Part shown: positions 36,874 to 60,227 of the stretch, piece after piece
Layout: each line of letters starts with the position of its first letter
How positions within the stretch are numbered: position 1 is the stretch's first letter
Source: a virus
IMG/VR virus record: IMGVR_UViG_3300029787_005266
Location: 27,043-91,042 of that record
Reading direction: 5' to 3' (one strand)
Length of the DNA: 64,000 nt
Notes under the pieces: generated by a model
Told to the model about the DNA's origin: nothing
The model's database searches: none
What the model saw: only the letters and a program-made list of their open reading frames with translations
Translations under genes and position numbers: made by a program

Positions 36874-36903
36874 ATTATAATTTATCTAAGGAGCGATTGT
36901 CAA
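36874..36903 (-). promoter_or_regulatory. Sigma70-type early promoter
   Basis: Read on the minus strand: perfect TTGACA (36898-36903), an 18-base spacer and perfect TATAAT (36874-36879). The start codon is 30 bases further on, with an AAGGAG ribosome site between. It overlaps the stop codon of the VWA gene and should drive the acidic gene, its neighbour, the epimerase, the aminotransferase and radical SAM enzyme 6. Confidence 0.75.
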
Positions 36904-38087
36904 GAATAATAAACGGTTTGCCCAAAAGGTGGTTTTACATGATCACCACTGTGTATGACCCAAAGTGTATCACAATGATCTGGATCACCCCATTGGTCCC
37001 AAGTTTCTCCATCAGTGAAAACCACTAGCATGGATGGACGTATTTCTTCATCTTGCATGTATTTCCAATTGACTGAAATATCAGTACCACCATATCCAGC
37101 GGGTTGGTAATCTTCAAGTTCTTTGCCATCCCATGTTTCAAATGTTTCATCAGCATGTACGTCTGTATCAAAACACCATACTCTGATTTTGTAATCATCA
37201 AATTCATCTTTGATGCCATTTATTTCACCTAAGAAATCTTGCAACATCTTATTATCAATTGAGCCTGATGTGTCAATAGCAACATGAACGTCAAGTTCAT
37301 TGTCTACATCTAGTCCAGGTAAAACTGCATTTGTGGAATACATTTTTCTAGATGGTCGTGTCCATGTGTAATTGTTTTTGATCTGACTTTTGATAGAAGT
37401 TCTAAGCATCTGTCTCCAGTCTAGTTTTGGAGAAGTAATGTCTGTAATCAATCTTTCAAGTCCTGCAGGAACATTACCAGCACCTGATGATTCAGCCGCC
37501 TTGGCTGATTGTATCAGACTGTTTTTAATTTCATCTTTTAGTTGATCTTGTTCAGCCTTGCTCATGCCTTCACCAATTTTTATAGTTTGTTTTGTGCCGT
37601 CTTTATTTTCAATGGTTGCTTCACCCTTATCTAGATCTAGATGTACATCTAAAGTTTTCTGTTGTTTTTGATAATCACTTAATTTTTCATAAATTTGTTC
37701 TGCACTCAAACCGTCATACTGTGGATCATATAATGGAGCCAAATCGCCTGTAGGTGGTCTGCCAATATTTTCATTAATGATAAGAGTGTTAATCGCATAA
37801 TCGGCCGCAACATTCCATCCCTGTGGATCTCGTTCACCTCTTCTTAGCATGTGTTCAAATGCAACATGAAGCACTTCATGACAAATCAAAAATTCAACTT
37901 GTTTTACATCTAATTTATTGATAAAGTCTGCATTGTAATATAAATGTTTTCCATCAGTGGCCGCAGTTGGTAAGCCTGGAGTTTCTTTCAATACCAACCT
38001 TGTAGCCATGTTGCCAAAGAAAGGTTTCTTCAACAACAATGATATTCTGGCTGTGACCAGTTTTTCTTCTACTGCTGACTTATGCAT
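36900..38087 (-). CDS. VWA-domain protein with N-terminal metallopeptidase-like domain
   Basis: 395 residues. The N-terminal domain carries HEVLH at residues 70-74 followed by AADYAIN, the pattern of DUF2201-type putative metallopeptidases. The C-terminal von Willebrand A domain has the metal site DTSGS at 272-276 and a later FTDGETW. Partner of the MoxR-like ATPase encoded just upstream with an eight-base overlap. Such pairs act as ATP-driven chaperones or metal inserters in bacteria. Their job in phages is unknown. Cytoplasmic. Confidence 0.85.
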   Translation of the reverse strand: MHKSAVEEKLVTARISLLLKKPFFGNMATRLVLKETPGLPTAATDGKHLYYNADFINKLDVKQVEFLICHEVLHVAFEHMLRRGERDPQGWNVAADYAINTLIINENIGRPPTGDLAPLYDPQYDGLSAEQIYEKLSDYQKQQKTLDVHLDLDKGEATIENKDGTKQTIKIGEGMSKAEQDQLKDEIKNSLIQSAKAAESSGAGNVPAGLERLITDITSPKLDWRQMLRTSIKSQIKNNYTWTRPSRKMYSTNAVLPGLDVDNELDVHVAIDTSGSIDNKMLQDFLGEINGIKDEFDDYKIRVWCFDTDVHADETFETWDGKELEDYQPAGYGGTDISVNWKYMQDEEIRPSMLVVFTDGETWDQWGDPDHCDTLWVIHSGDHVKPPFGQTVYYS

Positions 38088-39165
38088 TTTCCATACTCGC
38101 TACAACATACTTGCCAAATTGTTTATGAAACTTAGTAAACGATTTTAATTTACTAGGCTTCATTGGCAGTTTATAAGTTGATAAAGCAATCTTGGCACCC
38201 ATCACTGTAAGTTCAGTGTCAAAGTTGTCCATCATAAAGTTTAAGAAGCAGTCTGCTTTCTTATCAAAGTCTTTGTCTTTTTTATCGGCTGACTCTTTAA
38301 GTTCATAACACATACTCACTGCCAGTGAATATTGTCCACTTACTTCAGTTTTCTTCTTCATTTCTTTTACTTTACCACTTAGTATGTCTGTAGGATTAGG
38401 AAGGTCTGACGCAATTTTACGATGAGCCATAAATTTGATTGCCAAACCTTCCCCTACTGCACCTGCTACGAGATCGGTGAGTGATGTCTCAGGCAGGGAT
38501 TCTGTAAGTAGTTGACTCACGAATGCCCATGTTCTAGGAGTAGCAAACGCCTTACTAGAACCTTTAGGATCGAAGTCATACAAATCTTGTTTTGTAAATG
38601 TAATATAACCTACAACATCCGGATGAATGTTATGTAGAGTTGCCCATTCAAACCAATCTTCAAAATCAACTTTCATTTCCAAGTGTACAAATCTATTAGA
38701 CAACGGAGCAGGCATTCTAAATGTTACGCCTCTGTCTGTCTCTCTATTACCAGCCGCTACAATTGACACTCCTTCTGGTAATTTGTAAGCACCAACCTGT
38801 CTGTTTAGTATAAGTTGATAAGCCGCCGCCTGTACTGCCGGAGGTGCCGCATTGATCTCATCTAAGAATAAAATTGCAGTACTCTTAGGATCACTTGGTA
38901 ATTCAATTGGTGGTGCCCACTCCATCAAGTTGGATTTTGAATTGTAAAATGGAATACCTTTAATATCTGTTGGCTCCCACAATGGAAGTCTTATATCAAT
39001 TACTTCACGTTTTTCAATCTCACCAATTTGTTTTACAATGTCGGATTTACCAATACCAGGTGCACCCCATACCATGCATGGTCTCTTAAGATCAATACAA
39101 TGTTTTAAGGCTGTAATAACCTGGGTTGGTCCAATCTGTCTTGTTGTTTCTACTGTTTTGCTCAT
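38080..39165 (-). CDS. MoxR-like AAA+ ATPase
   Basis: 361 residues. Walker A GAPGIGKS at 34-41, Walker B ILFLDEINA with Asp102 and Glu103, then a VAAGNRETDRG sensor-like segment and NRFVHLEM. The size and motif order are those of MoxR-type AAA+ proteins, which remodel partner proteins together with VWA proteins; the VWA gene follows with overlap. A sigma70-type promoter and an AGGTG ribosome site lie upstream, so it belongs to the early set. Common in T4-like marine phages. Confidence 0.87.
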   Translation of the reverse strand: MSKTVETTRQIGPTQVITALKHCIDLKRPCMVWGAPGIGKSDIVKQIGEIEKREVIDIRLPLWEPTDIKGIPFYNSKSNLMEWAPPIELPSDPKSTAILFLDEINAAPPAVQAAAYQLILNRQVGAYKLPEGVSIVAAGNRETDRGVTFRMPAPLSNRFVHLEMKVDFEDWFEWATLHNIHPDVVGYITFTKQDLYDFDPKGSSKAFATPRTWAFVSQLLTESLPETSLTDLVAGAVGEGLAIKFMAHRKIASDLPNPTDILSGKVKEMKKKTEVSGQYSLAVSMCYELKESADKKDKDFDKKADCFLNFMMDNFDTELTVMGAKIALSTYKLPMKPSKLKSFTKFHKQFGKYVVASMENA

Positions 39166-48977: not shown

Positions 48978-50026
48978 GTTTTTAGTATACTTTCGTTGAT
49001 TGTTTTGTACAAGTTATTTCCATGGAAAAAATTATTCTTAAGAGATTGTTTTTGATGTTGCATCTTTATTCTATATGAATCATAATTGTCCATGTAATCA
49101 CAGATTGTATTTAGAATTTTATCTTTGTGTACCAAATAATCTTTCATACTGCTGGTCCATTCTGAAGGATATTTGAAATCATCGAACATTTCAGTATAAC
49201 TTAATCTATCAGGAACCATTGGAATAACATCTAGCAGTAAACCTTCAAATCCAGATATTCCAAGTGTTTCTTGCAAGTTTGCAGAAAATAATAATTTAGA
49301 TTCGGCCAACAAGTTGTGATAATCATCTTTTGATCTTGGTTCTTCTTGTGCAATCACAAATTCATATTGTGGCAATGCATCTTTTAAATCATAAAAAATG
49401 TCTGGTTGTTTTTCAGGAGCAATTCTGTGTGGAAACAGTATGATATCTTTTTTAGGCATATCTTTAAATGCTTCTAATTCTTGATCCATGTATTCCATCG
49501 GCCAACCAGTTCTTGTGATCTTGTCTTTATCCAAGTTTAATGTATCGGCAAACATATCGATATGAAAGTCTGTAGCAAAAAAATTGTCATCATAACAATC
49601 ATACATCGAACGTTCAGCATTTCTCACCCATGGTTTGTCACCTATTAGTCTACCCAGAAAGTCTGCTGGGTCATATGAACCTGCATGCCACATACCGCCT
49701 ATCTTAATTTTTATATTCAACAGTTCTGCCATGTATCGCAGTTGAATCACCGTAGGATTCCATGCATCGGTGTACAAAAAATAATCTCCATTTTTCACTT
49801 CTCCGTCACAAAACATTTGACCAATTTTTTCTAATTGTTTGGATTTGTATACATTGGTGCCTCCAAAATTTAAGAATGCTCCTGGAGTAGTTGCTTGTGG
49901 AGTATCGCCACCTGATATAGTCATCACAGATTGATTCGTGTGTCTACCTAATTGCTTGGGCAAATATTTTTTCCACTGTGCTGTGTATCTTGTTTCAACT
50001 GCTTCTATGTCTACTATAAAAATCAT
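48974..50026 (-). CDS. GT-B (GT4-like) glycosyltransferase in deazaguanine operon
   Basis: 350 residues. The C-terminal half has the GT-B donor-site pattern: LFPHRIAPEKQPDIFYDL, then SANLQETLGISGFEGLLLDV, where Glu lies in the E-x7-E-like region. The N-terminal half has HAGSYDPADFLGR and a TDFHIDMFADTLNL segment. No membrane anchor. It lies between GMP reductase and FolE, joined to both by ATGA. The acceptor could be a modified DNA base, as for T4 beta/alpha glucosyltransferases, or an intermediate; DNA is an inference from context only. Confidence 0.7.
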   Translation of the reverse strand: MIFIVDIEAVETRYTAQWKKYLPKQLGRHTNQSVMTISGGDTPQATTPGAFLNFGGTNVYKSKQLEKIGQMFCDGEVKNGDYFLYTDAWNPTVIQLRYMAELLNIKIKIGGMWHAGSYDPADFLGRLIGDKPWVRNAERSMYDCYDDNFFATDFHIDMFADTLNLDKDKITRTGWPMEYMDQELEAFKDMPKKDIILFPHRIAPEKQPDIFYDLKDALPQYEFVIAQEEPRSKDDYHNLLAESKLLFSANLQETLGISGFEGLLLDVIPMVPDRLSYTEMFDDFKYPSEWTSSMKDYLVHKDKILNTICDYMDNYDSYRIKMQHQKQSLKNNFFHGNNLYKTINESILKT

Positions 50027-51075
50027 TTTACTGTATATTGTTCATAAACTCTATTTTGTACATTATGTGTCTTTACAAAGGTAGCACATTTTGGCATATC
50101 TTTCAACCTTCTTGCTCCAATATATGTTGCAGACGATCGTACACCGCCAAGTATATCTTCAACTGTTTCTTTGACTGATCCTCTGTATGGTAACGTAATC
50201 AATCTTCCTTCATTACCACGATAACCATCTTTTCTTTTTCCATGCACTTCTCTTGCTCTGTCCGAACTCATGCCATAAAATTCAACTTGTCCATCAACTA
50301 TTTTTTGTTCTGATTCATCATGGCCTGCCAGCATACCGCCTATCATAACCATGTGAGCACCGCCACCTAATGCTTTTGCAATATCTCCTGGAAACACACA
50401 TCCACCATCTGCCATTATGTGTCCATCAACACCATTGGCCGCATCTGAACATTCACATATTGCTGAAAACTGTGGCACACCCACACCAGTCATTGTTCTG
50501 GTTGTGCATACTGAACCAGGACCAATTCCTATTTTTACAATATCAGCACCATTCAAGATAAGTTCTTCAGTCATTTCCGGTGACACAACATTGCCAGCAA
50601 TTATAATTTTATCTGGGTATTCTTCACGGATACGTTTTACAAAGTCAATAAATTTTTGGTGATAGGCATTTGCAACATCAATTGTAATAAATTTAACATC
50701 TGGAAAACTGGCCAACACCTCAGTCATAGTTTTGTAATCAGGTGCATCTGGATCCCACATAACATTTGTACCGGTACATACCGAAACAGATTGCAATCTA
50801 AGTCCAGTACCTGCCGCTTGTTTCCATTGATCAACTGTGGTAGACTTTGTGATCACAGTCATCATTTTGTATTCTTGTAAGACCTTTGCCATTGAAAAAG
50901 TGCCAACACCATCCATATTTGATGCAAATATAGGACAAAATTCTAACTGTTTGCCAGAGTTTATAAAATTAAATGTTCTAGTCATTTTTACATCTGCACG
51001 TGATGTCAGTGTTGATCTTTTAGGTTGCAATAACACATCATCAAAATTTAACTTTACTTCTGATTTAATTCTCAT
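50023..51075 (-). CDS. guaC: GMP reductase
   Basis: 350 residues, the length of bacterial GuaC, with no CBS domains, which argues against IMP dehydrogenase. The catalytic loop GIGPGSVCTTRTMTGVG holds Cys190 and matches GuaC. MADGGCVFPGDIAKALGGGA, GGMLAGHDES and the C-terminal VQNRVYEQY complete the likeness. It converts GMP and NADPH to IMP and ammonia, lowering the guanylate pool. In a deazaguanine operon it may route guanine released from DNA, or limit plain dGTP. ATGA overlaps on both sides. Confidence 0.9.
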   Translation of the reverse strand: MRIKSEVKLNFDDVLLQPKRSTLTSRADVKMTRTFNFINSGKQLEFCPIFASNMDGVGTFSMAKVLQEYKMMTVITKSTTVDQWKQAAGTGLRLQSVSVCTGTNVMWDPDAPDYKTMTEVLASFPDVKFITIDVANAYHQKFIDFVKRIREEYPDKIIIAGNVVSPEMTEELILNGADIVKIGIGPGSVCTTRTMTGVGVPQFSAICECSDAANGVDGHIMADGGCVFPGDIAKALGGGAHMVMIGGMLAGHDESEQKIVDGQVEFYGMSSDRAREVHGKRKDGYRGNEGRLITLPYRGSVKETVEDILGGVRSSATYIGARRLKDMPKCATFVKTHNVQNRVYEQYTVK

Positions 51076-54192: not shown

Positions 54193-54930
54193 TTACTTGC
54201 TTTGTGCAGGAAGTATGTATTGATATTTGCCAACGCCTGAATCAAGCACAATCTGTAATGCACCATCATCTGAAAAACTCATTTCGCAATCAGCAGTTTC
54301 TATCAATTTTAAAATTTGTGTAACTTGTGCAACAGGCCATGCCCATGATTTGGTTAACTCACCAGTCACGCCAGTTTCAAATACAAACTCACCAGCATGT
54401 GATGAAGCATCACCAAACTTAAATTTTAAGTTTCCATCTTCAGTTAGCACAGTAAACACATTCTCTTCTGAGTTTGCTTGTGCTTGAAAGTTTAATCTTT
54501 GTACTGCTGGCATAGTTGGCTTCATGGTTACATGCCAGTTTACTCCTCTAAACTTCACAGACTTTAATTTTTCATTAACAATCTCTGAATTCATAAATCT
54601 ATAATCATTTTTGAAATCTTTGTTTGCATTTTCAAAATGTAAACCTGTTGGCACTGTTTCGCCATTACGATCTTGTGTGTTCACAGTAATTTCTGCTTTG
54701 TCTTTGTATTCAGGACATTTTAATATAATGTCTAACTTGCCTAAGTTAGGCATTCCAAATGTGCCTTTCATTTCTGCAACAGGTTTGTTAAATTCTGCTT
54801 TCACAACAACTGATCTGTCTTCAGCCATTGCATCCATTTCTGTTTTTGCATCATCACCTACAATCTTGACAAGGTCAATAAACCCTAATGAATGTGTGTG
54901 CTTAACAATGTCTTGTAATATATCCTTCAT
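54193..54930 (-). CDS. 45: Sliding clamp (gp45)
   Basis: 245 residues, close to T4 gp45 (228). MKDILQDIVKHTHSLGFID, a long two-domain beta/alpha repeat and the end KYQYILPAQ match marine T4-like clamps. As a trimer it holds DNA polymerase on the template and, in T4, also activates late transcription at TATAAATA promoters. It has its own sigma70-type promoter and a TAGGAGAT ribosome site. DpdA follows two bases after its stop, linking replication with base exchange. Confidence 0.88.
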   Translation of the reverse strand: MKDILQDIVKHTHSLGFIDLVKIVGDDAKTEMDAMAEDRSVVVKAEFNKPVAEMKGTFGMPNLGKLDIILKCPEYKDKAEITVNTQDRNGETVPTGLHFENANKDFKNDYRFMNSEIVNEKLKSVKFRGVNWHVTMKPTMPAVQRLNFQAQANSEENVFTVLTEDGNLKFKFGDASSHAGEFVFETGVTGELTKSWAWPVAQVTQILKLIETADCEMSFSDDGALQIVLDSGVGKYQYILPAQSK

Positions 54931-54985: not shown

Positions 54986-55813
54986 TTATTCACCAATCTT
55001 TTCCATTTTGGTTGGGCCTTTTTTGATGCTCTCTAGTGATCCAGGTTTTTGCATGGATAAAAATGAGTAATGGTCTTCTATGTGATAAAACTCACAATTC
55101 ATATCAAACTTTTTCGCCATCCTTTTTATTATAGTTTCTGTACAGTATGTGCGTTTTTTTGACACTACCGAGGTCCATTCTTGTTCTTGGTCGGCATCAC
55201 TGAAATGTATAAAAGCAGAACCACCTGGTTTTAACATCTGATTAAAAGATGATATCAAATTTCTCATCTGTTCTAAAGACAAATAAGGAAAATAATCAAG
55301 ACACACAATGTTTCCAATTTGTCCATATGGAACGTGCATGTCTGGAATGTCACCATGTATTTCTAATGGTTTATGTCTGTACTGTTGCGGGTTGGATTTT
55401 TCTCTTAGATTGTCACGCAGGTGCTGATCTATGTCATTCATTTTAAATTTATTCGAGAGCACATAAACCAAATGTGATTTTACACCTTGTTCTGTATAAA
55501 GCAGTGTAGTTGGACAAAGCCACGCCATTGGATATCGCCAATCACTTTGTCGCACTAACCATGTTTTAATAAATTGCTCTACGTTTTGATTGTGAGTGAT
55601 TTTTAGTGTTTCAAAAAACTTTTCATCGAATCCCATGGCAAGACTTTTACCCATATCATCATTAATCATTTGATATGCTTCGTCTGAACTTTGAATGTAA
55701 TTTTCAAGTGATTCAAGATCTTGATGCAACTCACTTTTGAACATGTCAAAGTTTTCATTACATGCTTCTTTAAGAATCTTTACTGCTTCCTTTATTTGAT
55801 ATCTTGATGCCAT
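54986..55813 (-). CDS. Class I methyltransferase-like protein between gp43 and gp45
   Basis: 275 residues. The C-terminal half has NIVCLDYFPYLSLEQMRNLI, then LKPGGSAFIHFSDADQ, the typical motif IV-to-VI region of class I methyltransferases. The usual SAM loop (GxGxG) is not recognisable; WLCPTTLLYTEQGVKSHLVY is at its place. The N-terminal ~90 residues are helical. No DPPY-type catalytic motif for base methylation. Coupled to gp43 (TAATG). It may be inactive or act on an unknown substrate. Confidence 0.55.
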   Translation of the reverse strand: MASRYQIKEAVKILKEACNENFDMFKSELHQDLESLENYIQSSDEAYQMINDDMGKSLAMGFDEKFFETLKITHNQNVEQFIKTWLVRQSDWRYPMAWLCPTTLLYTEQGVKSHLVYVLSNKFKMNDIDQHLRDNLREKSNPQQYRHKPLEIHGDIPDMHVPYGQIGNIVCLDYFPYLSLEQMRNLISSFNQMLKPGGSAFIHFSDADQEQEWTSVVSKKRTYCTETIIKRMAKKFDMNCEFYHIEDHYSFLSMQKPGSLESIKKGPTKMEKIGE

Positions 55814-58446
55814 TACCCAAATAATTTATCAAATGTATTATCGGCTTCTGAATTTCCTAGGTCCCAATCCAGAACACCTATCAAATTATCTAATTTTTTG
55901 TTGATCAAAGTTGCCTCCATTTCATCATCTGCAAATGGCATTTCTTTAAACCATTCTGGAATACGCAATTCATCTGTTGGATATGCAATAGATGTATATC
56001 CCATAGGATTGTCCTTAAGTTTGCATACGATACATTTTTGTCCATCTATGATCTCCATGGAATATCTGTCATTGTAAACCTTTTTGAGTGTGTTCCAATT
56101 GATGGCCGCTCGTACATGACCAGGCATGTTTATTTTGCCTTTACGTTTTTCACGTGAATGATACTCAGTAAGTTTGTTAACACGTCTTGGCGATCCTTTT
56201 TCCCATCCTGGCATCTTTTTAAATTCTAATCTAAAGTCTGCAATGAACTCCATTATCTCTTGTTCTTCTTTTCCTGTAAGCACTTTGTCCAACACATCTG
56301 ACAGGAAGTTTTGTATGTAACTAGGAGTATCTGAACGTTTAAGATCTAGTCCCATTGCTTTTATTTTGTCTATTTTGTTTCCTTCAAGATCATATATCTT
56401 AATAGCATATCTTTTCTTTGTGATGAATAATCCTTTTGACCCAACAACTTCTCTACCTGCTTTTATTAATTTACCATATGTAGATGGACAGTTGAATGCA
56501 TCTTGCATATATTTTGTAAATGATTTGTTTACTTCTTCTGCAACAGAGTCATACAGTTGCGTTACCGATTCTTCTGACCAAGGGATATTGCCTGCATCTA
56601 TTTCTTCTTTCAAAGGAGCATAAGCACTGAAATACACAGAGTCTGTGTCACCATATATCACAGATGGCCCTACATAATCATATGTGCCACAAATGATTTC
56701 ATTAGTCTTTGCCGCCATGTGTTTTGTAATGCATCTGCCAGTCAATGTTGTAGATTGTCCAATTCTTATATCAAAGAATCTACAACCTGGATTTAGTAAT
56801 GCACCATATAGAGAATTCAAATTAATTTTTTTAACCAACTGTCGCTTATCCCAAAATTCTTGTTCTACTTTGTTGCCGGCATCAATTGCCTGTTGCAGTT
56901 TGCCTTGCATTTCTTTTCTTTCTGCATACCAACGTTCTAACAAGCCTGGGATTACTCCTGCAAATTCATGTGTAAAAATTGTGCCATTTGCACTCAAGAA
57001 CCAAGGTTTCCCTTGATCATAAATCAAATCATACACTTCTGCCGCACTCAGTATGTTTGACTCTCCATTCTCCCAATCAATTGTGATGCTTTGTGCTCTG
57101 TCTTTAAGCATCACGGCACTGTACTCTAGTGTGCCAAATTGGCCTTCCCATGCACCTGCAAAACTGACTTTTTGTGCCATCTTACCATCTATAAAGTCTT
57201 CAGTCAAATCTTGCCGCAGTTGTCCAACAATAGTTTCATTGCCCATGTTAAGTGATCTAATCACACTTGGATACAGTGAATTAATGTCAATGGATCCAAT
57301 CCAGTCATGCAATCCTTTTTTTGGATATGCCACATAGGCACCTGCCGCAGGGTCTGATCCTGGTTCACGCCTTACTCTGTCAGGAACAACCATGCCACGT
57401 CTATGTGCTTCATTAATAATGCCTTGCTCAGTCACTGCCACAGCACCCATTGTAGTTTGAATTAATACTGTGTTTTGGTGTGCTAGTTCGTTTGAGAGAT
57501 CAATAAATTTAAGTTTTGCATCAAGTCTGCCTAGCAGTGCTGTATCTTGTCTGTTATACTCAATAAATTTTACAAAGTCTTCATTGTATAATTGATCAAG
57601 TGTACCTTCATAAGGTGTCTTTTGCTCACCAAGTTCATGTTTAGATATAAAGTCTAATGCGTATGAATGTCTTTCTTCGTATGTGTATTTTCTATACAGT
57701 TGCATATAGTCTAAATGCACTCGGCCTATTATGTCATATGTGACCTCTTCGTTGCCAAAACGTTCAAATGTTCGTTTGCGTGGAAACGTATTCCACAAAC
57801 ACAAACGCCTTGTGTCGTCTTTGCTCAACACTTTGGCAATTCTATGCACAGTGTATGGAATATCAAATCCTTCTGAGTTCCAACCTGATATTACATCAGC
57901 ATCTTCTATGATTGTGATAAACTTGTCCAACATGTCTGCTTCATCTGGACACAACATTGTATTTTCAAATTGTTGTTCTACAATTTCTGGATTAGGAAAG
58001 TTTTTTGGTGGAACAGCAAGTGTAATCAATTGATCCATCCAGTCCAAATACACAGTGACAGAAATGATAGGAGACCATGCATCTGCTGGTTTGGCATATC
58101 CTTTAGCTGGATCAAAGTCTACCTCAATATCAAAAAAGGCACACTGTAATTTTGGAGTCTCTTTGCCCAGATAGTTTTCTTCCAAGCACCTAAAGATTGG
58201 ATTTACATCTGACTCATACATTTTTTTGTCTTTGTGAAAAGCACATTCACGTTTAAATTCTTTGCCCTGTTTGGTTGCTATTCTACTGACTGGATTACCA
58301 TATATGCTTTTGTATTTGCCTTTGGGATCATCATAGTATGCCACATAACGAGCAGGATATTCTGTGAAATATCTCTTGCCTTCTCTGCGTTCTACCACAG
58401 ATATCTTGTCTGCTTCTCTATCGAATAATGCGTCTACGTAACTCAT
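55813..58446 (-). CDS. 43: DNA polymerase, family B (gp43)
   Basis: 877 residues, as in T4 (898). Exonuclease site: AFFDIEVDF (Asp106, Glu108), SGWNSEGFDIPY and YNRQDTALL. Polymerase site: SIDINSLYPSVIRSLN (Asp387), KKINLNSLYGAL near 539-550 and YGDTDSVYF (598-606). No intein or split. The thumb region is complete to the C-terminal clamp-binding tail. The upstream message includes the DsbA-like, pseudoazurin and small membrane genes, all overlapping or close. Confidence 0.96.
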   Translation of the reverse strand: MSYVDALFDREADKISVVERREGKRYFTEYPARYVAYYDDPKGKYKSIYGNPVSRIATKQGKEFKRECAFHKDKKMYESDVNPIFRCLEENYLGKETPKLQCAFFDIEVDFDPAKGYAKPADAWSPIISVTVYLDWMDQLITLAVPPKNFPNPEIVEQQFENTMLCPDEADMLDKFITIIEDADVISGWNSEGFDIPYTVHRIAKVLSKDDTRRLCLWNTFPRKRTFERFGNEEVTYDIIGRVHLDYMQLYRKYTYEERHSYALDFISKHELGEQKTPYEGTLDQLYNEDFVKFIEYNRQDTALLGRLDAKLKFIDLSNELAHQNTVLIQTTMGAVAVTEQGIINEAHRRGMVVPDRVRREPGSDPAAGAYVAYPKKGLHDWIGSIDINSLYPSVIRSLNMGNETIVGQLRQDLTEDFIDGKMAQKVSFAGAWEGQFGTLEYSAVMLKDRAQSITIDWENGESNILSAAEVYDLIYDQGKPWFLSANGTIFTHEFAGVIPGLLERWYAERKEMQGKLQQAIDAGNKVEQEFWDKRQLVKKINLNSLYGALLNPGCRFFDIRIGQSTTLTGRCITKHMAAKTNEIICGTYDYVGPSVIYGDTDSVYFSAYAPLKEEIDAGNIPWSEESVTQLYDSVAEEVNKSFTKYMQDAFNCPSTYGKLIKAGREVVGSKGLFITKKRYAIKIYDLEGNKIDKIKAMGLDLKRSDTPSYIQNFLSDVLDKVLTGKEEQEIMEFIADFRLEFKKMPGWEKGSPRRVNKLTEYHSREKRKGKINMPGHVRAAINWNTLKKVYNDRYSMEIIDGQKCIVCKLKDNPMGYTSIAYPTDELRIPEWFKEMPFADDEMEATLINKKLDNLIGVLDWDLGNSEADNTFDKLFG

Positions 58447-58667
58447 GTAATATAGTTTAACACAATCCCGCCTGTGCCTACAAGGAATAATACAGCATTG
58501 GTTACAATCAAAGACGGTTCACGCCACATACAAGAAACAGCCAGCCATATGAGACCTCCTAGTGCTAGTATGATAGCTCCTAGGGGGTAGATGCCAAATG
58601 CATTAACGCCTGTACCCACAATTAAAATTGCGGTGGCTAGCCATTTCAGTAATGTGTCTAGTTTCAT
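58443..58667 (-). CDS. Small membrane protein upstream of gp43
   Basis: 74 residues with two or three hydrophobic segments (LATAILIVGTGVNAFGIYPL, then AIILALGGLIWLAVSCMW, then TNAVLFLVGTGGIVLNY). ATGA overlaps couple it to the pseudoazurin gene before it and to gp43 after it. Similar small membrane proteins are common in marine T4-like phages, as far as I recall. It may sit beside the pseudoazurin at the host inner membrane; no function is known. Confidence 0.65.
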   Translation of the reverse strand: MKLDTLLKWLATAILIVGTGVNAFGIYPLGAIILALGGLIWLAVSCMWREPSLIVTNAVLFLVGTGGIVLNYIT

Positions 58668-59083
58668 ATAGAATCAAGTAACTCTGCTAATTTCTTCTTT
58701 GATTTTCCAACTGCTTTTTGTGTTGCAATTTGTTCTTTGTTAGAGATATCATTGCCGACTACAACCAACCCGATCATGCCCATGGACTTATGTGGTGTAC
58801 AAACATAATAGTATATGCCTGGAGTTTCAAATGTGTGCGAAAACTCTTTGTTCATTTTGCTTTTCTTTGGCAGTGTTGCTCCTTCTGGGCCGGCAACAAA
58901 TTCAACATTGTGTCCTTTGGAGGTTGGTAACCAAGTTATTGTATGCTCAACATCGATGTTTACAACGTCTTCTGAGTAAACCATTTTGGCTCCGTCATCG
59001 CGTTTGTTTAACATGTCGATAGTGTGTTCTGCATATGCAGGTGTTACAAATAAAAAAACTAATAGTGTAATAATGTATTTCAT
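58664..59083 (-). CDS. Pseudoazurin-type blue copper protein with signal peptide
   Basis: 139 residues. A signal peptide (MKYIITLLVFLFVTPAYA) is cut after Ala18. Copper ligands have canonical pseudoazurin spacing: His58 in GHNVEF (His40 of the mature protein) and Cys95, His98, Met103 in VCTPHKSMGM. These type I copper proteins carry electrons in the periplasm, for example to nitrite or nitrous-oxide reductases or cytochrome oxidases. AAGGAG five bases before the ATG gives strong expression, and the gene lies in the early gp43 message. The C-terminal helix is Lys-rich. It presumably keeps or redirects host respiration. Confidence 0.88.
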   Translation of the reverse strand: MKYIITLLVFLFVTPAYAEHTIDMLNKRDDGAKMVYSEDVVNIDVEHTITWLPTSKGHNVEFVAGPEGATLPKKSKMNKEFSHTFETPGIYYYVCTPHKSMGMIGLVVVGNDISNKEQIATQKAVGKSKKKLAELLDSI

Positions 59084-59092
59084 GTATGCTCC

Positions 59093-59344
59093 TTATCTTG
59101 CTATGTCTAATAATACTTCTAAGTCTTCAAAATCTTCTCGTTCAGCGGCCGCACTGTCTTTGAATCTCACATTTATTGCTTTCATCAGCACTGCTGGTTT
59201 TATGTTAAGTTCAAGTGCTACTGCTTTAACTGTGTCACGCAAGCCTTCATTTAAATCTTGTACTTCTTGTTTTACATTTGTGCCTTGTTGAATGATCTGT
59301 TTAATCTTGGCTTGATCATCAGAACTAAAGTTTGCTATTGCCAT
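59093..59344 (-). CDS. dsbA: DsbA-like double-stranded DNA binding protein
   Basis: 83 residues, all helical. The C-terminal part NIKPAVLMKAINVRFKDSAA followed by EREDFEDLEVLLDI resembles T4 DsbA (KMFNRLLALYHKDN, then EAETEEVVELYD), a small dsDNA-binding protein that supports late transcription. AAAGGAG six bases before the ATG and a good promoter mean strong early expression. It is the first gene of the message that continues into pseudoazurin and gp43. The identification rests on size, pattern and position. Confidence 0.65.
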   Translation of the reverse strand: MAIANFSSDDQAKIKQIIQQGTNVKQEVQDLNEGLRDTVKAVALELNIKPAVLMKAINVRFKDSAAAEREDFEDLEVLLDIAR

Positions 59345-59395: not shown

Positions 59396-59536
59396 TTGAT
59401 TTCTAGTTTGTTTTTTCATTCCAGCACTGAAATATCTCACAGAGCCTTCTTTGTTTTTCTTAAGACCACGACTGCCTGGAGACTGTGGTTTTTCAATCTG
59501 TTTAGATACTGCTACAAATTCTTTAATCTTCACCAT
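59393..59536 (-). CDS. Very small basic protein
   Basis: 47 residues from the ATG at 59536, which overlaps the previous gene's end by fourteen bases. The peptide is strongly basic with Gly/Pro/Ser (KPQSPGSRGLKKNKEGSVRY). No family recognised. A longer reading frame upstream would lie wholly inside the previous gene, so the internal start is preferred. Could bind nucleic acid. Confidence 0.45.
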   Translation of the reverse strand: MVKIKEFVAVSKQIEKPQSPGSRGLKKNKEGSVRYFSAGMKKQTRNQ

Positions 59537-60227
59537 ACATCGCGTCCGAGTTGTCTTTGTCATATTTAGTGAATCTACTACCATCCTTGTATGTGGCACC
59601 TTTTGATCCAAACTCGGTCATGTAGTCATCGGAAGTGCCGCCAGTCCTTTTGTTTTCAACGGTGTACACTGTTTGATCAATTTTGTATCCTGGGTTGCGT
59701 GTGAGTCTGTCTGTGATGTATGCATCATCAGTCCACACAATTCTGTTGTTTGGATAAATGAAAAAGTTTCCATCATCCATTTTAAATGTGTGTCCGCACT
59801 TGTGTTCAGGATCTTCTGCAAAATTGCAGTCTGTGTTGCCAGCATGATTTTCCCAAGACCAATCTAGTGTGAACATGTATTCACCCCAATGTCTGCCACC
59901 ATGCAAATCAATCAATTCTGCTCTGCGTCTTGCCAATCTGTGTCGCACATTTACATCAATGTAAGGGGAAAAACAATTCCAATACTGATGCATTTCTATA
60001 GGATGTATAGGAGCATCTTCTTTCCAACAGAATGCCATGATAGGTCTGCGTGTCCAGTTTACTCCATTTTCCATCAATGCTTCAAACAATGGAACTTTGT
60101 GTTCCATGGATGCAACTGAATGAACTTCTGCCACAGAAAAATCGCCGTGACCTTTTTGATGATCGTACATGTACTCATCTCTTATTAAACATGTGAAGGG
60201 TGGTAGGTTATGATTCAAGTATGCCAT
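59523..60227 (-). CDS. Conserved T4-like marine phage protein, unknown role
   Basis: 234 residues. The start MAYLNHNLPPFTCLIRDEYM, with YDHQKGHGDF, is a segment I associate with conserved genes of marine T4-like phages. The middle, HWGEYMFTLDWSWENHAGNT, is aromatic and the end polar (GSKGATYKDGSRFTKYDKDN). Cysteines and histidines at CNFAEDPEHKCGH could bind a metal. No known reaction. No clear promoter box upstream. Confidence 0.6.
   Translation of the reverse strand: MAYLNHNLPPFTCLIRDEYMYDHQKGHGDFSVAEVHSVASMEHKVPLFEALMENGVNWTRRPIMAFCWKEDAPIHPIEMHQYWNCFSPYIDVNVRHRLARRRAELIDLHGGRHWGEYMFTLDWSWENHAGNTDCNFAEDPEHKCGHTFKMDDGNFFIYPNNRIVWTDDAYITDRLTRNPGYKIDQTVYTVENKRTGGTSDDYMTEFGSKGATYKDGSRFTKYDKDNSDAMYGED

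Follow-up and report, generated by a model that had tools for sequence, protein, structure and literature searches.

A pseudoazurin-type blue copper protein gene in the DNA polymerase operon of a marine phage

We identified a gene for a secreted pseudoazurin-type blue copper protein in a 64,000-base stretch of viral DNA ("the window"; bases 27043-91042 of the 91-kb virus record IMGVR_UViG_3300029787_005266), where it is an insertion into an operon that otherwise runs from a promoter through a dsbA-like gene and a DUF6552 gene to the DNA polymerase gene gp43. We consider it likely that the gene came from marine Alphaproteobacteria and that its product is a functional periplasmic carrier of single electrons in respiration.

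Results

Copper Ligands, Signal Peptide, and Family Assignment

The gene (58664..59083, minus strand) encodes 139 amino acids from an ATG start. An earlier first-pass annotation had read it as a secreted type I copper protein with exact ligand spacing, and this reading stands: the sequence gives directly a Sec signal peptide (MKYIITLLVFLFVTPAYA; 59030..59083, minus strand), cleaved after AYA and before Glu19, as well as all four copper ligands. Counting the first residue after this cleavage as Glu1, the ligands are His58 (mature His40; codon 58910..58912) and, in the loop Cys95-x2-His98-x4-Met103 (58775..58801), Cys95 (mature Cys77; codon 58799-58801), His98 (mature His80; codon 58790-58792), and Met103 (mature Met85; codon 58775-58777), all on the minus strand. 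His58 and the loop are invariant in alignment A1, the Cys-x2-His-x4-Met pattern is kept in 160/160 viral and cellular relatives examined, and the first 20 residues of an AlphaFold model have low pLDDT, which we list in support of the signal peptide. The same annotation had taken the ligand spacing as a mark of pseudoazurins; the spacing is present, but plastocyanins commonly have Cys-x2-His-x4-Met as well, so it is not diagnostic by itself, and we assign the family on the matches that follow.

The protein matches Pfam Copper-bind (PF00127) at 2.3e-15 and the pseudoazurin profile TIGR02375 at 2.5e-27 with 94.9 bits, against 49.6, 46.5, and 36.3 bits for the rival halocyanin, amicyanin, and plastocyanin profiles. 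Its best relatives in a PDB sequence search are pseudoazurins (7.5e-22), and its identity to solved pseudoazurins is 35-40%. The AlphaFold model (pLDDT 92) has two C-terminal helices (116-120 and 127-138) after the beta sandwich; in a fold search of the PDB the best 27 matches are all pseudoazurins (E 1e-11 or better; TM(target) 0.83-0.92), and plastocyanin comes only after those, at 9e-9. Profile, sequence, and fold thus all rank pseudoazurin first and together rule out a plastocyanin or an amicyanin, the two placements that the first-pass annotation had named as evidence against its call.

The window protein (94.9 bits) does not reach the NCBIfam equivalog cut-off of TIGR02375 (109.85), and we therefore call it pseudoazurin-type and do not count it among the proteins that the cut-off admits. 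Five further relatives also score below that value (96.9-106.4 bits); since four of them are chromosomal, sorT- and sox-linked ones included, the cut-off appears tight for this marine group. On sequence and predicted structure, the assignment of a pseudoazurin-type carrier to a marine phage is firmly established, and profile, PDB, and fold matches, along with the dN/dS values given below, confirm that the secreted cupredoxin gene on the phage is real and not a product of chance.

The gp43 Operon

The gene order is promoter, dsbA-like gene, pseudoazurin, DUF6552 gene, gp43, all on the minus strand. The best promoter site, a predicted sigma70-like TAGACA-17-TATAAT (59395-59367; 11/12), lies ahead of the dsbA-like gene (59093..59344), the first of the operon. 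Of 19 polB (gp43)-anchored relatives examined, nearly all have a similar promoter before the dsbA-like gene, and although their flanking DNA has diverged, an AGGAG-like site is nearly always kept; promoter conservation amid diverged DNA supports the predicted promoter as real. Pseudoazurin starts 9 bases downstream of the dsbA-like gene, and its AAGGAG ribosome-binding site (59089..59094), 5 nt before the ATG, overlaps the end of that gene and is kept in three close relatives (L001-L003). Its stop overlaps the start (ATGA) of a small membrane protein gene of the DUF6552 family (58443..58667; PF20189, 2.3e-08), which in turn overlaps gp43, a family B DNA polymerase gene (55813..58446; phrog_262, 1.8e-195; PF00136, 5.9e-35). 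Two genes of unassigned function, one an open reading frame for a 275-aa protein (54986..55813) and the other matching phrog_12062 (54193..54930; 9.3e-37), follow downstream at positions conserved in relatives. The operon is shared with gp43, as had been proposed; the early, high-level expression that the first-pass annotation expected from the AAGGAG site is a prediction.

The DsbA-like partner named in the first-pass annotation is where it was said to be, but its 83-aa product is a homologue of phage DNA-binding and transcriptional regulators (phrog_12534, 1e-15; phrog_639, "transcriptional regulator," 9.8e-07); this match and the lack of any cysteine rule out a disulfide isomerase. Elsewhere in the window, on the same strand, a gene at 59523-60227 is labelled "ferredoxin" by PHROG (phrog_3704) and matches nothing in Pfam; its annotation looks doubtful.

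Insertion and Selection

The first-pass annotation had held that loss of the gene in all close relatives would count against it, and the comparison of gp43 relatives divides by distance. Where gp43 is 95-99% identical (L198/L005, L199/L001, L002, L003, and L004), pseudoazurin occupies the same place; where it is 92% identical (L200, L201, and L206), the dsbA-like gene leads directly to DUF6552 and pseudoazurin is absent, as it is from more distant relatives with the sole exception of L218 (gp43 55%), in which it precedes the dsbA-like gene. Given these absences, pseudoazurin is dispensable.

One could then regard it as a passenger in a dsbA-gp43 insertion hotspot, transiently retained and of little benefit. 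Such a reading would account for most gp43 relatives doing without the gene and for the changing content of the slot, which holds DUF6552 alone, two unrelated genes (L206), or an FAD/NAD reductase (L219/L220). Pairwise dN/dS of pseudoazurin among relatives is, however, 0.11-0.21 at dS 0.5-1.1, values by which the gene is under purifying selection, and the gene recurs in many phage lineages, with at least four changes between viral and cellular carriers forced by well-supported branches of the more careful of two trees. We therefore hold a mere passenger to be very unlikely and retain the functional carrier as our reading. In L004, gp43 is nearly identical (dN 0.005) whereas pseudoazurin has diverged (dN 0.146) and the upstream sequence is different, a contrast that suggests allele replacement.

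Pseudoazurin also lies beside gp43 in phages unrelated to this one (L017, L035, L049, L057, and L066), which is suggestive of preferential placement there. Several of the loci L006-L014 have another replication-gene neighbor, a DnaB-like helicase (profile run on L010 only) directly ahead of a pseudoazurin-DoxX pair. The reductase found between the dsbA-like gene and gp43 (L219:725-1423; L220:1064-1762) is FAD/NAD-binding and resembles ferredoxin-NADP reductase.

Source Phage and Distribution

At 45-48% identity, the closest relatives of the window gp43 are those of jumbo phages that infect Sinorhizobium and Agrobacterium. A 335,231-base contig (L089 / G158:C57), labelled as part of a "Neomarinimicrobiota" MAG, has gp43 at 62%, a Gp23 capsid gene, homologues of several other window genes, and a pseudoazurin ~63 kb away from gp43, in a region that shares 99.96% identity with the L029 viral contig; this contig is a mis-binned jumbo phage. 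Judged by the content of this contig, the window record, whose own 91 kb contain neither terminase nor Gp23, is probably part of the genome of a jumbo T4-like phage. A further contig, labelled Muricauda (Bacteroidota), has a pseudoazurin-DoxX pair among phage-looking genes (L112:7980-8800) and probably is also a mis-binned phage. Mis-binning of this kind is what might lend weight to the idea that the window gene is host contamination or an assembly artefact and not a phage gene at all, but the operon arrangement is identical in the independently assembled L001-L005 and phage structural genes stand elsewhere on pseudoazurin contigs, so that we regard this explanation as extremely improbable and continue to treat the gene as the phage's own.

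Used as query, the window protein had 278 matches in marine viral contigs, and the L056 protein, used in a second scan, had 254; the two counts overlap and are not additive. Terminase is on the same contig as pseudoazurin in 4/37 records searched, the T4-type Gp23 capsid protein is on four pseudoazurin contigs (G106, G110, G121, and G124), and tail sheath and tail tube genes lie beside pseudoazurin in L075. Considered as an AMG, the gene has phage neighbors (gp43 and the DsbA-like gene), relatives on contigs with Gp23 or terminase, and an origin in cellular metabolism. We found no pseudoazurin among 50,697 phage genome records, in which the best relative is cyanophage plastocyanin (~30% identity), and no report of pseudoazurin in a phage in the open-access literature searched.

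Two further window genes, both on the minus strand, encode an IMPDH/GMP-reductase-like protein (50023-51075) and a DUF2201 metallopeptidase/VWA protein that adjoins a MoxR-like AAA ATPase (36900-39165). Several other phages (L030, L036, L070, L073, and L076) have homologues of the former (44-48%) close to pseudoazurin.

Redox Neighbors in Other Phages

A DoxX-family membrane gene (PF07681) is present in 44/80 viral loci of the first scan (tblastn, E<1e-4), or in 42 of the same 80 by clustering within 4 kb, and mostly directly adjacent to pseudoazurin. The second scan gave 37/70 newly numbered loci, many of them first-scan contigs and thus not an independent sample. The association also holds from the other side: of 80 DoxX-anchored viral loci, 44 have pseudoazurin, 35 of these within 100 bp, whereas among 23 control loci anchored on gp43, DoxX occurs in L218 only, which has pseudoazurin. 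An alternative oxidase (AOX) gene lies near pseudoazurin in six contigs (L075, L330, L332, L349, L311, and L355), with the profile checked on L075 (L075:5200-5811; PF01786, 8.1e-82), and AOX is also present elsewhere on the L029 contig. In the literature searched, AOX is not reported from any phage of a heterotroph. A cellular alphaproteobacterial contig, which bears histidinol dehydrogenase and BioY genes, has pseudoazurin, DoxX, an FAD/NAD reductase, and AOX within ~6 kb (L113:8001-13699), so the whole set exists in a bacterial genome. A 2OG-Fe(II) oxygenase gene is another neighbor of pseudoazurin in phages and cells (L040:2667-3530; PS1-clade loci such as L109), and one is also present in the nirK region published for SAR11 (PMC12816887).

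Neither DoxX nor AOX was found on the window's own 91-kb record, and the argument from redox partners therefore derives from other phages. The window encoding no redox partner next to pseudoazurin, the protein might instead be a copper buffer or scavenger, binding periplasmic copper to protect the cell or to supply an oxidase and having no essential shuttle role; any cupredoxin binds copper. We judge this unlikely, since the ligands, loop, and C-terminal helices are those of a redox carrier and are conserved, and since the pairing with DoxX or AOX in other phages fits electron flow better than buffering. A respiratory role remains our best inference.

Cellular Relatives and Metabolic Context

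The pseudoazurin relatives recovered in a genome scan are almost all from marine Alphaproteobacteria, and both trees interleave viral genes with marine alphaproteobacterial ones, in agreement with the heterotrophic gene source that had been proposed. The phylogeny suggested at the outset for finding the donor host thus yields marine alphaproteobacterial kin, but neither of the two trees identifies the lineage from which the window clade took the gene. The first places the clade next to the L087/L091/L100/L106 group, at a weak support of 83; in the careful tree, made with signal peptides removed, the clade is kept (100/96) and this neighbor is not, and we therefore claim no donor.

The chromosomal surroundings fit respiration and sulfur-compound oxidation. 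In two SAR11 genomes (L101 and L120) the gene order is SorT-type sulfite dehydrogenase, cytochrome c, pseudoazurin (the L120 dehydrogenase scoring 541 bits against a cut-off of 570), in further SAR11 genomes a PF00174 gene lies within ~5 kb of pseudoazurin, and in L146 and SAR116 genomes sox genes surround or adjoin pseudoazurin. L088, L091, and L106, the chromosomal loci that the first tree places closest to the window clade, show neither Sor nor Sox genes in the stretches examined. In the sorT - cytochrome c - azu2 operon of Sinorhizobium meliloti, both small proteins have been proposed as electron acceptors (PMC3511301).

The first-pass annotation had expected a link to respiration or denitrification, of which the former fits these contexts and the latter is not supported. 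In a host from waters poor in oxygen, a protein that donates electrons to NirK or N2O reductase would be in keeping with the classical pseudoazurins, which serve NirK and NosZ. One SAR11 nirK-cbb3 region also includes a pseudoazurin (PMC12816887), and one of 50 pseudoazurin-bearing genomes (G052) has a partial nirK-like match. Across these 50 incomplete genomes, however, a search that covered nirK found it above cut-off in none, COX1 is present in 42, and the chromosomal contexts that we could identify are of sulfite or thiosulfate oxidation genes. A donor for denitrification is accordingly improbable, and we keep to the respiratory carrier.

Discussion

We infer as follows how the protein acquires copper, with which partners it exchanges electrons, when it is made, and how the phage benefits. 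Pseudoazurin would be made alongside DNA polymerase during infection, exported through the host Sec machinery, and loaded with copper in the periplasm, where it may supply a terminal oxidase with electrons from the dehydrogenases that oxidise sulfite or thiosulfate in that compartment, from the bc1 complex, or from both; the shuttle could keep respiration and proton pumping running as host protein synthesis falls. Taken more broadly, the evidence for and against is about evenly balanced for our further proposal of a modular kit for respiratory electron transfer in the T4-like and jumbo phages that infect marine Alphaproteobacteria. Consisting of pseudoazurin with DoxX or AOX, this kit would redirect host respiration and sulfite or thiosulfate oxidation during infection and be the counterpart of cyanophage photosynthetic electron-transport genes. 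The FAD/NAD reductase that a relative has in its gp43 operon would be a further part of the kit.

Most phage redox carriers known so far come from cyanophages, in which their role is in photosynthesis. The presence in many marine phages of a pseudoazurin that is paired with DoxX or AOX, and is akin to genes with which SAR11 and SAR116 bacteria oxidise sulfite and thiosulfate, suggests that phage control extends to respiration and the oxidation of sulfur in the commonest heterotrophs of the ocean. Pseudoazurin-bearing phages probably steer the energy metabolism of infected cells, and their pseudoazurin is a small, testable protein.

Among known systems, the window protein is like alphaproteobacterial pseudoazurins, especially the SorT-linked azu2 (SMc04047) of S. 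meliloti, in fold, ligands, C-terminal helices, and signal peptide, and SAR11 homologues keep the gene order of the S. meliloti sorT operon (PMC3511301); it differs in being phage-borne within a replication operon, in scoring below the NCBIfam cut-off, and in its limited identity to the solved proteins. An integrated element of Thaumarchaeota that bears a gene of the plastocyanin/azurin family (PMC6563490) likewise has a cupredoxin on a mobile element, here an archaeal one that we set beside the window gene by its published description. Cyanophage plastocyanin (PetE) is, like the window protein, a phage-encoded secreted type-1 copper electron carrier, and both kinds of carrier have a quinol oxidase as neighbor in some phages; in cyanophage S-SM2, ferredoxin and plastoquinol terminal oxidase genes come after petE. 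PetE belongs to another cupredoxin subfamily and has no C-terminal helices, whereas the window gene is of heterotroph-type source and its proposed partners are respiratory, not photosynthetic. By this analogy, the window pseudoazurin is best read as the heterotroph counterpart of cyanophage plastocyanin.
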